64,000 nt of DNA from Streptomyces atratus (GTDB lineage: Bacteria; Actinomycetota; Actinomycetes; Streptomycetales; Streptomycetaceae), in assembly GCF_900119365.1 (NCBI RefSeq), contig NZ_FPJO01000006.1:248001-312000 (forward strand), in the 5' to 3' direction. This document shows, in pieces, positions 8,609 to 12,951 of this stretch; position 1 is the first letter of the stretch; the number at the start of each line of letters is the position of its first letter. A program made the translations under genes and the position numbers. The notes below the pieces were generated by a model. That model saw nothing but the letters and a program-made list of their open reading frames with translations, made no database searches and was not told the origin of the DNA.

Positions 8609-9184
8609 ATGACCGATGTATCCGTGCGCCTCGCCGATCCGGCCGACCGGCCGACACTGGAGCGGCTCTGGCTGCTGTTTCGACATGACATGTCGGAGTA
8701 CAGCGGTGTGCTGCCCAACCCGGACGGCACCTTCCGAAGCGATCGGCTCCACGCCGCCCTCACCCGGGCCGACTGGGCGCCCTATCTCCTGACCAGTGAC
8801 GGGTCCCCCGCTGGTCTCGCCCTCGTCCGCAGCCTGGCCGGCCCGACGCGCGTGCTGAGCGGCTTCTTCGTGGTGCGTGGTGTACGTAGGACGGGGATCG
8901 GGCTGCGTGCCGTTCGGGAGGTCGTGGCGAGGCACCCCGGGCCGTGGGAGGTCGCCTTTCAGCAGGGCAACGCGACCGCGGTCGCCTTCTGGCGTCGCGT
9001 TGCCACCGAGATCGCCGGCGAGGCGTGGACCGAGGAACGCAGGCCGGTACCGGGGCGCCCGGACCTGCCGCCCGATACCTGGATCTCGTTCACTGCCCCG
9101 GCCGAGGCCCAGGGCGGAACATCGAGTGCCTCCGTCAGCCGCGCGCCTGGGCTTCACGTGCACGGTCACACATCATCCGCATGA
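8609..9184 (+). CDS. GNAT-family N-acetyltransferase
   Basis: The product has 191 residues with the GNAT acetyl-CoA-binding arrangement (LSGFFVVRGVRRTGIGLRAV, then QGNATAVAFWRRV). The ATG at 8609 has a strong ribosome-binding site, GGAGGG (8598-8603). The acceptor substrate is unknown. The 3' end overlaps the convergent nucleotidyltransferase gene by 19 bases. Confidence 0.85.
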   Translation: MTDVSVRLADPADRPTLERLWLLFRHDMSEYSGVLPNPDGTFRSDRLHAALTRADWAPYLLTSDGSPAGLALVRSLAGPTRVLSGFFVVRGVRRTGIGLRAVREVVARHPGPWEVAFQQGNATAVAFWRRVATEIAGEAWTEERRPVPGRPDLPPDTWISFTAPAEAQGGTSSASVSRAPGLHVHGHTSSA

Positions 9185-9942
9185 GCTCCTCTGCCCGCCA
9201 GACGGTCGCTCGCTGCCGCCACGAACGCGGTGGCAGCGGGTGCCGTCGGCCCCGGCAGTCCATCGTGTTGGCGGGCGATGGCCGCGGTGACCACCGCGTG
9301 GTTCCCATGCAGGTCCTGGTACCACCGGCCGCCGTCGAGCTTGGAGCACAGTTGCCCGTCGGCAGCGAATCGCAGCGCGCGGCAGGCGTTGAGGACCGCG
9401 TACGTCGCGCTCGCGTGGTCCAGTGCCCACCGCAGCTCGCTCACCATCGCGGCACGCACGCGGTCGGCCGGTACCGGGGCGAAGACCTCGTACGCCGGTG
9501 GCCCCCAGGCGGCGAGCGCATGGTCTCGGCACACGGCACAGTGCAGGACCAGGTCGCCGTCACCGGCATGGCCCGCCCCGGGGATGACGGCGGTCTCGGT
9601 CGCGGAGGTGCGGATGTGGACCTCGAACGGGCAGGAACCGACGTCGGCCGCAGTTGCCGCGGTGATGACGCTCATCTCCAACCCCGTGCCGGGACATCGC
9701 GACGTGGTCTCCACCACCGCCTCGCCCAGGGCCTGCTGGTCGCCCTCGGTGCCCTGCTCGGCGACGACAGCCAGCACATCCACGTCACTGCGATCAGCGT
9801 TGAATCCCCCCAGCACGGCCGAACCATGCAGATAGACGCCGATCAGGTCGGGACGCACTCCGATGAGGACTGCCGAGACCTCGGCAACGTACCCAATGAC
9901 ATCGGGAGGCACATGAACTTCGGTAACCACGGAGCCGATCAT
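9166..9942 (-). CDS. Nucleotidyltransferase, aminoglycoside-adenylyltransferase-like
   Basis: The product has 258 residues with the polymerase-beta nucleotidyltransferase signature HGSAVLGGFNADRSDVDVLAV near residue 40, where GS and the DxD pair bind nucleotide and metal. A C-terminal helical domain (DUF4111-like) follows, as in AadA/ANT(3'')-type enzymes. Such enzymes adenylate streptomycin- or spectinomycin-like aminoglycosides, but distant chromosomal homologues may have other substrates. Resistance is therefore possible but not shown. Confidence 0.85.
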   Translation of the reverse strand: MIGSVVTEVHVPPDVIGYVAEVSAVLIGVRPDLIGVYLHGSAVLGGFNADRSDVDVLAVVAEQGTEGDQQALGEAVVETTSRCPGTGLEMSVITAATAADVGSCPFEVHIRTSATETAVIPGAGHAGDGDLVLHCAVCRDHALAAWGPPAYEVFAPVPADRVRAAMVSELRWALDHASATYAVLNACRALRFAADGQLCSKLDGGRWYQDLHGNHAVVTAAIARQHDGLPGPTAPAATAFVAAASDRLAGRGAHADDV

Positions 9943-10076: not shown

Positions 10077-10570
10077 GTGCGCCGCCCTCGGGCGTCCCGG
10101 TTACTTCGGGTCGCGGTTGAAGACCGCCTCCTGATCAGCTCCGCCGCCGTCGCCGTCACGATCGCCACGCGCAAGGCCGGCCAGCACAACTGGACGATCG
10201 CCTTCGCCGTCATCTCGGCGATCTTCCTCTACACCACCGTGGTGTACGTCATCGAGCGCCCCGACGGAGTGAGGATCGGTGCCTGCTTCATCGCCGGGAT
10301 CATCCTCGTCTCCCTGCTTTCACGGCTCGCGCGCGCCTTCGAGCTGCGGGTCACCAGCGTGACCATGGACGGCATGGCGGAGCGCTTCGTACGGGACGCC
10401 GCCAGCCGCAGGATCCGGTTCATCGCCAATGAGCCCGACAACCGCGACCTCGCCGAGTACCGCGACAAGATCGAACAAATCCGTCACGACAACGACGTCC
10501 CGGTCCAGGAGGACTTCGTCTCCGTCGAGGTCACCGTCCTCGACCCCTCGGAGTTCGAAGCGGGCCTGAA
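10077..10570 (+). pseudogene. C-terminal remnant of an amino-acid permease (APC-like)
   Basis: In-frame translation gives two hydrophobic helices (WTIAFAVISAIFLYTTVVYV; ACFIAGIILVSLL) and a conserved cytosolic tail (RFIANEPDNRDLAEYRDKIEQI). This is the end of the long APC-type transporters common in Streptomyces. The first ten or so helices are missing, and the tail runs into unrelated sequence at the end of the JmjC gene (10587). No credible start codon exists for the conserved part. Confidence 0.7.
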
Positions 10571-10586
10571 CGTATGCGGCGAAGGG

Positions 10587-11489
10587 TCAGCCCAGCAATG
10601 CGCTCAAAGAACCCTCGTCGGTGTGCTGTTCGCGGCGCATCGCGTCCCGGGCCAGATCTACCAGCGCTTCCGGCGTGAGGCCGGTGAGCGTGCGGTGAAA
10701 ATGCGCGATGAGGTCGTTCGCGGCCCCGGTCAGCGCTGCGTCATCGTTGGGCCGGGCGGGCAGTCCGTCGCCGTTCAGCAGGAGTGCCTCAAGAACGGCG
10801 TACAAGTGGGCGGAGCCGGCCTCACGGACCGTGAACGAGAGGTGAGCAGACGCGCTCCCCCCGGTGGCTTCGGCCACATGCGCGAACCCCCTCGGTACGT
10901 AGAGGACTTCGCCCTGCCGCAGAACCACGTCCAGCAGCGGATCCCCCGGGTCGCCGTCCACGCGCTCGGGCTGCCAGTTCCCGCCGGGCGGCCCCGGATA
11001 CACACGCCACCGCTTCGAACCGTGTATCTGCACGGCCAGCACGTCGGCGTCGTCGCGGTGCACAGGACGGCCCTGCGTCCCCGGCGGGGTGAGGAAGAAG
11101 AACGCCTCCACCTGGCGTTGAAAACACTCCGCAAGCCCATCGGCCAGTTCCCGCACGCCTGCGTGCCACTGGTCGACGTACCGCAGAAGGAGCGTGGCTC
11201 CCTCCTCGCCGATCAGTCGGCGCACCGCCCCGGCATCCACGTAGCGGTTGTCGATCCGGCCCAGGACGACTCGGGGGGAACAGTAACGCTCCTCCGGAAC
11301 CGGACCGTCCTCGTGCACGAGCGTCGCATAAGGGGTGGTGAGGAGACCTGCATCCAGGATCCTGTCCAGCTCGGCGACCGTCAGCATCTCCGTCGGGGGT
11401 GTGCGGGGGTGGTGTACGGCGGGTGCGCGGCGCCACAGCGTGTGATGAAATGCCTGCTCGTCGTCCACATATCGTGCAAGCGAGCCCAT
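10587..11489 (-). CDS. JmjC/cupin-4 Fe(II)/2-oxoglutarate oxygenase, distal paralogue
   Basis: The product is a 300-residue JmjC-fold oxygenase of the ribosomal-oxygenase (NO66/RoxA-like, cupin-4) type. The iron-binding triad is visible as HRD (His144, Asp146) and His204 in YVPRGFAHVAEA. Members hydroxylate side chains of proteins or peptides using 2-oxoglutarate and O2. The start at 11489 (MGSLARY) is chosen for its ribosome-binding site GAGAGG; upstream ATGs lack one. It is a clear paralogue of the next gene (shared LRYVDQWH, VEAFFFL, VHRDD, GEVLYVPRGFAH). The gap between the two genes is only 34 bases, so they are probably co-transcribed from upstream of the peptide gene at 12677. Peptide hydroxylation is inferred. 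Confidence 0.88.
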   Translation of the reverse strand: MGSLARYVDDEQAFHHTLWRRAPAVHHPRTPPTEMLTVAELDRILDAGLLTTPYATLVHEDGPVPEERYCSPRVVLGRIDNRYVDAGAVRRLIGEEGATLLLRYVDQWHAGVRELADGLAECFQRQVEAFFFLTPPGTQGRPVHRDDADVLAVQIHGSKRWRVYPGPPGGNWQPERVDGDPGDPLLDVVLRQGEVLYVPRGFAHVAEATGGSASAHLSFTVREAGSAHLYAVLEALLLNGDGLPARPNDDAALTGAANDLIAHFHRTLTGLTPEALVDLARDAMRREQHTDEGSLSALLG

Positions 11490-11523
11490 CGTTGCCTCTC
11501 TACGTTCCATGTCATCGGCGTGA

Positions 11524-12393
11524 TCAGACGGTCTGACGGTTGCTGTACGCACGCGGTCGTGCCCGGCCGATGACATCATCCGGGGTGACTGCGTCGAGCT
11601 GTGCGCCGAGATGGTCCAGGAGGTCGGCCGCGGTGCGCAGCAGGGCGTCATCGTCCAGCGGACGGCCCGGCAGAGTCAGGCCGTCGACGATCCCCGTCAG
11701 CAGAGCGGTGCGCAGATGCTCCGCACCGGCTTCCCTCACCACCACTGTCAGATGGGCCGACGAGGCGTCGCCCACGGCCGTGGCGGTGTGCGCGAAACCT
11801 CTCGGCACGTACAACACTTCACCGGCCTCAAGGACCGTGTCCAGCAGTGGCGCTCCCGGATTCTCCTCGCGGACCGGCGCCCAGTCGCCGTCGGCCGGAC
11901 CCGCGTACACCTGCCAGTGCTTGGCGCCGCTGAGCTGAATGGCCAGCAGGTCCCCGTCGTCCCGGTGCACCGGACCCCGGCGGCCGGGACGGCTCAGGAA
12001 GAAGAACGCCTCGACGAGCCGGCCGAGCCGCTCGGCGACGCTTCCCGTGAGTGCACGCACCGGGGGATGCCATTGGTCGACGTATCGGAGCTGCAGGGTC
12101 GCCCGTTCCTCATCGATCAGTCGTCGGACCGCCGCCGCGTCAACGTACCCGTGGGCAGGATTCCCGGTGATGACGCGCGTCGGACAGAAACGCTCGTCGG
12201 CGATGCTCCCCTGTGCGGTGTACAGGCCGACATACGGAACGCGCAGCAGCCCCGCGTCGAGGAGCGCGTCCACATCCGAGAGTGTCAGCACCTCCAACGG
12301 CGGTTCCTGCGGCCGCAGAAGCACCGGTTCCTTCCGCCAATACGTACCCAGGAGCTGCTCCACGTTCGGAACGCACCGTTCCAGCCAGTCCAT
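11524..12393 (-). CDS. JmjC/cupin-4 Fe(II)/2-oxoglutarate oxygenase, proximal paralogue
   Basis: The product has 289 residues with triad His143-x-Asp145 (VHRDD) and His202 (RGFAHTAT). It aligns along its whole length with the downstream paralogue but diverges at the N-terminus and in the last 40 residues, so the two may act on different positions or substrates. The start at 12393 (MDWLERC) is preceded by a GGACA/GAGAGGGA purine run. It lies 92 bases downstream of the small peptide gene on the same strand. Tandem oxygenases behind a secretion-like peptide gene suggest post-translational hydroxylation of that peptide. Confidence 0.88.
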   Translation of the reverse strand: MDWLERCVPNVEQLLGTYWRKEPVLLRPQEPPLEVLTLSDVDALLDAGLLRVPYVGLYTAQGSIADERFCPTRVITGNPAHGYVDAAAVRRLIDEERATLQLRYVDQWHPPVRALTGSVAERLGRLVEAFFFLSRPGRRGPVHRDDGDLLAIQLSGAKHWQVYAGPADGDWAPVREENPGAPLLDTVLEAGEVLYVPRGFAHTATAVGDASSAHLTVVVREAGAEHLRTALLTGIVDGLTLPGRPLDDDALLRTAADLLDHLGAQLDAVTPDDVIGRARPRAYSNRQTV

Positions 12394-12485
12394 TGTCCTG
12401 TCCCTCTCCGAGCGGACCCGCCGACGTGAGCGCCGACGGGTCCCGGACGCGCTTGCGCGCACTCGCTTGCGCGCCGGTCAGCCGA

Positions 12486-12677
12486 TCAGATGACGTCGGG
12501 GTAGCAATCCCCGCACCCGGCCTCGATCTTCTGGTCCGAGGACGGGGACTCGGCGGCATGCCCGACGGACGGCACGAAGAACGCCCCTCCGGCAACGGCG
12601 AGCGCCGCCACGCTCAGCGCCGCACGCTTGGAGATCTCCGCACGCTTCGACGGCTCTGCAGCCTGGGAATACGACAT
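12486..12677 (-). CDS. 63-residue peptide with hydrophobic leader and Cys-x-x-Cys tail, candidate RiPP precursor
   Basis: The ATG at 12677 has a strong ribosome-binding site (AAAGGAG, 6 bases upstream). The N-terminus is basic (KRAEISKR, 11-18), followed by an Ala-rich hydrophobic stretch (19-35), a small-residue site (VGHAA, 38-42) and an acidic tail ending GCGDCYPDVI. Cys55 and Cys58 and two Asp residues lie in the last nine positions. This looks like a leader or signal peptide plus a short core. The gene heads a same-strand unit with two JmjC oxygenases, a class that hydroxylates Asp, His, Asn or Arg side chains. I know no named family with this tail. The precursor role is inferred; a small secreted protein is the alternative. 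Confidence 0.72.
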   Translation of the reverse strand: MSYSQAAEPSKRAEISKRAALSVAALAVAGGAFFVPSVGHAAESPSSDQKIEAGCGDCYPDVI

Positions 12678-12951
12678 GACCACTCCTTTCCCCGGCAGCG
12701 GTTTCCACCGCGCCCGGGTGTTCACTCGACCTCGGTTCCGAGGCCGAAACAGATCTTGCGTCGGCCCGCGTACGGAGGAGAAGCAGCACTGACGTATTCC
12801 ATACGCCGCTTACGGATCTCTGATGCGCCCTCTCCTCCCCAGCCGGTGCCCTGTGTTGTGACTTGCAGGAGCCGTCGTTCGTAGCAGCAGAGCCGTGCCA
12901 AGTCCCGGCGTGGGGCCCCAGGTCACAGCGAGTGAGTCCTGGGGCTGATCC

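Follow-up and report, generated by a model that had tools for sequence, protein, structure and literature searches.

A conserved three-gene module was found on the minus strand of a 64,000-nucleotide stretch of Streptomyces atratus contig NZ_FPJO01000006.1; this whole stretch is called the window below, and positions are given in its own numbering. The module encodes, in order, a 63-residue peptide and two JmjC oxygenases, JmjC-A and JmjC-B, separated by gaps of 92 and 34 nucleotides (nt). A small peptide with a ribosome-binding site (RBS), followed by two paralogous JmjC proteins, had been described in an earlier sequence-only reading of this DNA, and that layout was confirmed. Peptide and JmjC pair recur together in other genomes, and the module is more than a chance arrangement. 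We consider it likely that the module is of the kind that makes ribosomally synthesized and post-translationally modified peptides (RiPPs), with a Sec-type signal as leader and with both oxygenases acting on the peptide's tail. Very probably the peptide represents a little-studied type of natural peptide tailored by enzymes. The parts of the module are as follows.

12486..12677, minus strand: gene of the 63-residue precursor-like peptide, MSYSQAAEPSKRAEISKRAALSVAALAVAGGAFFVPSVGHAAESPSSDQKIEAGCGDCYPDVI, with an ATG start and with homologues found.
12683..12688, minus strand: RBS of the peptide gene, AAGGAG, read from the sequence.
12555..12677, minus strand: leader with signal-peptide architecture, a basic n-region and a hydrophobic core, by a simple rule.
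Within 12555..12677, minus strand: possible signal-peptidase site after residue 41 (G-H-A), by a simple rule.
12489..12515, minus strand: conserved C-terminal tail CGDCYPDVI, residues 55-63, the proposed oxygenase target, from homologue comparison.
12414..12443, minus strand: GC-rich hairpin of 13 bp within the 92 nt that separate the peptide gene from JmjC-A, from folding against shuffled sequences.
11524..12393, minus strand: JmjC-A oxygenase, 289 residues, with H143/D145/H202, K158 and F-x-F at 130/132.
10587..11489, minus strand: JmjC-B oxygenase, 300 residues, with H144/D146/H204, K159 and F-x-F at 130/132.
10584..12838, minus strand: extent of the module common to strains with other flanks (a cassette), from sequence matching.

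The association of peptide and enzymes was examined from both sides. Starting from the enzyme, JmjC-A was searched with six seed patterns in one genome per species (84,980 species), which gave a non-exhaustive set of 29 loci. Ten of these carried a JmjC pair and 15 a single JmjC gene behind a P450-like gene; the remaining loci comprised two with a nucleotidyltransferase-like gene, one with a methyltransferase and one truncated gene, with one example of each type of neighbouring gene scanned with Pfam. The peptide lay directly upstream of the JmjC pair in 10/10 of the pair loci found through the enzyme, as the sequence-only reading had expected for homologous pairs. These ten loci, the window and five loci picked for holding the peptide (L071-L075) make up the 16 clusters compared below. 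Because those five were chosen in that way, the linkage test rests on the 10/10 count and on the searches that started from the peptide. The nearest peptide copy ended 50-513 nt before JmjC-A in the 16 clusters.

Starting from the peptide, a degenerate tail pattern matched at 10 sites, spread over 6 of 394 genomes of the family, and the reversed pattern gave 0 matches. The JmjC pair was present in 6/6 of the genomes found in this way (the window, L036, L038 and L071-L073; by coordinates, G362 is the record of L038 and G389 that of L036), so that in both directions of search (10/10 enzyme-found pairs, 6/6 tail-found genomes) the modifying enzymes stood beside the precursor, as is looked for in a RiPP system. 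The pattern overlooked at least one genome with the peptide, G388, probably because its stop codon is TAG, as in L035. When the whole peptide was searched against 295 genomes of the genus, seven gave a match that covers the tail (E 6e-8 or better); JmjC-A was present in 7/7 of these, and both enzymes within a short locus in 6/7. In the other 34 of the 41 matching genomes the matches were weak, almost all of them restricted to the signal region; one (G039) extended to residue 60. Class-wide (394 genomes, E 1e-15 or better), JmjC genes above 160 bits occurred in four genomes, three of them with JmjC pairs (two modules in G422); the fourth, G173, has the single type. Of the weaker matches, one, again in G173, scored 125 bits and all others less than 90 bits. 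Of the 394 class genomes, 3 held JmjC pairs, four in all, each with the peptide beside it, and the G422 and G388 modules both carried it. The tail was absent from 26 generic cupin-4 loci (96,667 bases), 18 single-JmjC loci and 35 loci with weak signal-region matches. A chance small open reading frame (ORF) was ruled out by the conservation over 16 clusters together with the zero tails in these control loci.

One member was seen outside the Streptomycetaceae, in Nocardia crassostreae (L041). A deep phylum-wide distribution was not found: 396 genomes of the phylum gave just the window's own peptide plus weak signal-region matches. G422 holds two different copies of the module (L073 and L089) about 4 Mb apart, with JmjC-A proteins 57% and 95% identical to that of the window. 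The truncated JmjC-B-like gene at L060:5911-6645 is apparently a decayed copy of the module; the conserved peptide tail was not seen at that locus. Tandem peptide copies occurred in 4 of the 16 clusters (2, 3, 2 and 2 copies). They were not counted as proof of function, since copies in the same genome are identical or nearly so and may be recent duplications.

The tail followed the consensus C-[GA]-x-C-x-x-D-V-[IM] over the 16 clusters, and Cys55, Cys58, Asp61 and Val62 were invariant (16/16). Position 56 was G in 14 clusters and A in 2; position 57 was D in 9, E in 3, A in 2 and G in 2; position 59 was Y in 13, P in 2 and E in 1; position 60 was P in 14 and L in 2; and position 63 was I in 15 and M in 1. 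The sequence-only reading had listed Asp57, Asp61, Tyr, Pro or Cys as sites of modification. This list was only partly right, since Asp57, Tyr59 and Pro60 vary; Asp61 and the two Cys residues do not. The tail formed the exact C-terminus of the peptide in 15 of the 16 clusters.

Ratios of nonsynonymous to synonymous differences (pN/pS) were obtained from 15 clusters with one peptide copy each (105 pairs); L040, in which the tail has no stop codon, was left out. They are raw values over non-independent pairs and not those of a fitted model. The tail had a ratio of 0.35, compared with 0.62 in the hydrophobic stretch, 0.98 at the N-terminus and 1.07 in the linker. By these ratios, purifying selection is strongest on the tail and absent from the linker. 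Conservation confined to the signal region, the outcome the sequence-only reading had set against its own proposal, was thereby ruled out for the real homologues, the tail being more strongly conserved than the hydrophobic stretch (0.35 versus 0.62). The peptide has two conserved blocks joined by a variable linker, an architecture like that of a leader-core precursor, and so is a short precursor with conserved leader and core parts, as is looked for in a RiPP. By a simple rule, 16/16 distinct peptides from 15 clusters had the signal-type build of a basic n-region and a hydrophobic core, with an AxA-type site after F[AVG]P; L040 was again left out for its tail without a stop. The predicted mature peptide in the window is AESPSSDQKIEAGCGDCYPDVI. 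No Pfam or NCBIfam (June 2026) name was obtained above cut-off for the peptide, which is annotated in S. atratus as the hypothetical protein WP_072485435.1.

The invariant CxxC beside an Asp and a free carboxylate, like the signal-peptide architecture of the peptide, would also suit a secreted metal-binding or redox peptide, the tail of which would bind a metal or cycle a disulfide outside the cell while the oxygenases tune it, in the manner of the MNIO-made bufferins. We consider this fairly unlikely: neither a metal transporter nor a metal regulator was conserved when the window was compared with nine loci, and the regulator that recurs is LuxR-type (within 4 kb in 9 of the 16 clusters). Such a role would be a function rather than an alternative chemistry, and may be compatible with a RiPP-like module whose tail is oxidised.

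Both module enzymes matched Pfam JmjC_2 (PF08007; E 5.8e-16 and 3.2e-20) and were 50% identical to each other; neither had an NCBIfam (June 2026) match above cut-off. H143, D145, H202 and K158 (JmjC-A numbering) were unvarying in 50 of 50 aligned sequences (16 JmjC-A, 16 JmjC-B and 18 single JmjC), and the intact HxD...H iron sites that the sequence-only reading had noted in the two proteins extend to all of these. The conserved Lys sits 15 residues downstream in both enzymes, and a Lys in this position has a role with 2-oxoglutarate. A tree of 50 of the 51 rows, with the truncated JmjC of L060 left out, placed JmjC-A, JmjC-B and the single type each in one group (support 79/85, 82/87 and 100/99). 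A split between A and B is thus likely, although not firmly supported. The earlier suggestion that the duplication reflects two sites or two steps fits separate A and B groups.

Structure models of JmjC-A and JmjC-B had mean predicted local distance difference test (pLDDT) values of 92.6 and 89.5. Model A was compared by VIA-align, and model B by Foldseek and VIA-align. The nearest solved folds by VIA-align were those of NO66 (Z 25.5 for A and 26.3 for B), MINA53 (24.4 and 25.1) and YcfD (20.1 and 20.1). With these histidyl (NO66, MINA53) and arginyl (YcfD) hydroxylases (PDB 4ccn, 4bxf, 4nub) the module enzymes have the JmjC_2 fold, the HxD...H site and the Lys in common, and their models align with NO66 and MINA53 over nearly the full length. 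After residue 222 the two models contain only helices and no strands. A C-terminal winged-helix domain is a trait of the NO66/MINA53/YcfD family; because no strands follow residue 222 in either model, this domain appears to be missing from the module enzymes, which sets them apart from that family. No PqqD-type Pfam match was obtained in the module proteins and no RiPP recognition element (RRE) was recognisable in the models, with no RRE-specific search made.

The Asn-x-Tyr of MINA53 holds the side chain of the substrate histidine. In the alignment with MINA53, the one alignment on which this comparison is based, its Asn and Tyr fall on F130 and F132 of the module enzymes, and are thus replaced by Phe. 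F130 was Phe in 50/50 and F132 in 49/50 of the aligned sequences, versus N and Y in 26/26 generic actinomycete cupin-4 homologues (those returned as loci by the class-wide JmjC search). The peptide-linked enzymes therefore share an altered, more hydrophobic stretch, probably at the substrate pocket. The exchange of N-x-Y for F-x-F speaks against recognition of the histidine type; Val62, Ile63, Tyr59 or a Cys-based reaction fit it no less well than Asp61. Membership of PF08007 and the closest folds (NO66, MINA53 and YcfD) would agree with ordinary ribosomal oxygenases that happen to lie beside an unrelated secreted peptide. That explanation is very improbable, as peptide and pair occur together in 10/10 enzyme-found loci whose neighbours are otherwise mostly different, strands are missing from the enzymes beyond residue 222, and with them a C-terminal winged helix, the N-x-Y pair is absent too, and the module occurs sporadically (in 3 of 394 genomes of the class).

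Returning to the RiPP-like module, we infer the following route from the observed linkage, tail and active-site residues and from the predicted folds. The 63-residue peptide would be the precursor, with CGxCxxDV[IM] at its C-terminus as the core and, in its N-terminal 41 residues, a Sec-type signal peptide that doubles as leader. The two JmjC proteins would be Fe(II)/2-oxoglutarate oxygenases that modify the tail in the cytosol, acting successively or at two sites; export and cleavage would then yield a secreted peptide of ~22-29 residues. As the most likely chemistry, at least one enzyme would hydroxylate a side chain in the invariant D-V-I end, and the other would act on a Cys-bearing position, by hydroxylation or by a Cys crosslink. 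As the main tail reaction, hydroxylation within D-V-I has in our estimate close to an even chance, a Cys-based crosslink is possible but doubtful, and some other oxidation is rather unlikely. The reading as a system is well supported, and hydroxylation and Cys crosslinking are both candidate chemistries.

Several points weigh against this reading. The module is known here from genes and structure models. The hydrophobic part of the leader is also conserved, which by itself could mean just secretion, and no protease, transporter or leader-binding gene was conserved between the window and the nine loci compared with it. In L040 (from the genome of L006/G046) a TGG codon stands in place of the stop, directly after CAECYPDVI (L040:5750-6000), so that the tail is not C-terminal; its close relative L127, on a plasmid of Streptomyces sp. 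NBC_00048, retains the stop, and the TGG may be either a mutation or a sequencing error. Groups A and B have tree support of just 79/85 and 82/87, and one enzyme of the Nocardia pair is nearly tied between them (244 bits to A versus 239 to B). The hairpin in the window's spacer is weak (z -1.71, with 15 of 200 shuffles folding equally well).

That JmjC/cupin oxygenases take part in some RiPP pathways, as the sequence-only reading noted, is borne out by published systems. According to two papers (PMC12707348, PMC12257519), biphenomycin-type RiPPs have the JmjC or cupin-type ornithine hydroxylases BipG, BpmG and PbsQ; hydroxylation of a side chain in the core was demonstrated for BipG and PbsQ. 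As in the present module, a JmjC or cupin-type oxygenase is encoded with a precursor peptide. The biphenomycin-type enzyme acts on ornithine and stands beside an MNIO, an arginase, a radical SAM enzyme and a peptidase, unlike the module, in which two JmjC paralogues stand alone with a signal-type leader and a tail without Arg. Another paper (PMC12710340) describes bacterial PF08007 homologues of RRE-JmjC fusions in RiPP-like contexts. PF08007 enzymes thus stand beside RiPP-like genes there as here; the fusions, as described, carry an RRE, whereas none was recognisable in the module models.

Crosslinking in the present module would be carried out by one or both JmjC enzymes, joining a tail Cys to Tyr59 or to a neighbouring carbon to give a small macrocycle. 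Both Cys are invariant, and Cys58-Tyr59 is present in 13 of the 16 tails, including that of the window. A precedent is given in PMC12636437, which, citing Xia et al. 2025 (doi 10.1021/jacs.5c07332; by its title, as listed in PMC12710340, on macrocyclisation in RiPPs catalysed by an alpha-ketoglutarate (alpha-KG)-dependent dioxygenase), mentions the first Cys-Tyr crosslink made by an alpha-KG enzyme in RiPPs; as described there, that system likewise has an alpha-KG enzyme in a RiPP pathway and both Cys and Tyr in the core, and the module enzymes may belong to the same family as that enzyme. In the module, the fixed residues are Cys-Cys-Asp-Val, and Tyr is missing from 3 of the 16 tails (two CGGCPLDVI and one CGDCEPDVI), so that Cys and Tyr do not occur together in the core of every member. 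We regard crosslinking as a possibility on the doubtful side.

Bufferins are secreted Cys peptides made by MNIOs. Like the module, they combine a small Cys peptide, a signal-type leader and an adjoining iron oxygenase; in the module, a JmjC pair lies beside the precursor. The gene tables of S. atratus and Streptomyces sp. NBC_00048, which are incomplete, list no MNIO (DUF692) near the module. No description of this make-up was found in the titles, abstract openings and passages of the open-licence literature, a coverage that mostly leaves out subscription journals, and an earlier description may exist. It looks as if just this make-up is undescribed, and not the idea of JmjC enzymes in RiPP pathways.

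Enzymes with F-x-F also occurred in other peptide contexts. The 15 single-JmjC loci (L044-L054 and L056-L059, from Streptomyces, Kitasatospora and their kin) each have, in this order, a 27-residue peptide, a P450-like gene and a JmjC gene. All 15 peptides, such as MKMIKALVKKFKKDEDLAQHAWVLHVI, end in W-x-x-H-V-I, and the single JmjC behind the P450 belongs to the same F-x-F clade. The one P450 that was scanned matched Pfam p450, with the RiPP enzyme ApyO as its best NCBIfam match, far below cut-off. We take these loci as a second, RiPP-like family. On plasmid NZ_CP108991.1 of Streptomyces sp. NBC_00715 (L128:207-5846), a 39%-identical JmjC with F-x-F is accompanied by a SagD-type YcaO protein and a thiazole/oxazole-modified microcin (TOMM) leader-binding protein, both above cut-off, by a SagB-like protein (below cut-off) and a nitroreductase-family protein, and by a Cys-rich 57-residue ORF ending in GGGCDCDFCTLNCV. 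By its gene content this locus reads as an azole-type RiPP cluster with a JmjC enzyme. From the P450 and YcaO contexts, the F-x-F clade appears to keep company with peptide modification.

The V-I end common to the two peptide families suggests that a free C-terminus is read. Taken further, the short F-x-F JmjC clade, without a recognisable RRE and marked by E/D-[AV]-F-x-F versus Q-[AV]-N-x-Y, would consist of RiPP tailoring enzymes that read free C-termini (D-V-I-COOH here, H-V-I-COOH in the P450 family). The pair would then make a Cys-crosslinked secreted peptide with an oxidised C-terminus, and two JmjC enzymes with a Sec leader would define a RiPP class. We offer this wider proposal tentatively, with more doubt than confidence.

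A further small ORF was seen near single-JmjC genes. A 20-residue ORF, MMKHASILRPRLDKVKPQSR, identical in two species, lies on the minus strand at about 4687 of L042 and about 4561 of L043. It is near a presumed M16-type peptidase gene and divergent to a nucleotidyltransferase-like gene and a single JmjC. It is possibly another precursor, and is given as a lead only.

The three genes place substrate and enzymes side by side, with the target narrowed to nine residues that include two Cys. They offer a cheap test of JmjC chemistry beyond protein hydroxylation, and of whether paralogues divide successive oxidation steps on a single peptide between them. Should the clade signature hold, proteins annotated as 'cupin domain-containing' become a search handle for RiPPs without the usual marker genes. 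In the annotated S. atratus and NBC_00048 records, the peptide has no name beyond hypothetical protein.

Over 16.9 kb, the window shares 99.76% identity with a linear plasmid (911,696 bp) from Streptomyces atratus NBC 01545, in the annotation of which the peptide is a hypothetical protein and JmjC-A a cupin domain-containing protein. Between the window and the nine loci, no further gene recurred beyond close relatives. Spacers between the peptide gene and JmjC-A were folded for nine loci, a tenth (L073) being too long and left out. Hairpins with z -1.7 or lower were found in 6 of the 9 spacers and in none of the other 3, so that a conserved attenuator was not upheld. The hairpins could raise expression of the precursor over that of the enzymes.

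L032 matched the window from 12838 to 10584 and L034 from 12835 to 10584, and the rest of these two 12.9-kb loci had no match to the window at E 1e-5. Since their flanks do not match, the module seems to move as a cassette. Its edge at 10584 abuts a stretch (10129-10586) that is 78-84% identical in seven relatives, the matches of which stop between 10562 and 10589; this stretch looks like a fragment of an interrupted older gene. The same edge in L033 lies ~320 nt further on. The pattern at the edges suggests insertion of a mobile cassette. A tRNA gene as integration site was looked for, and none was found within the window. The gene adjoining the module, at 9166-9942 on the minus strand, encodes an aminoglycoside adenylyltransferase-like protein (AadA_C) and is likewise so annotated in S. 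atratus.

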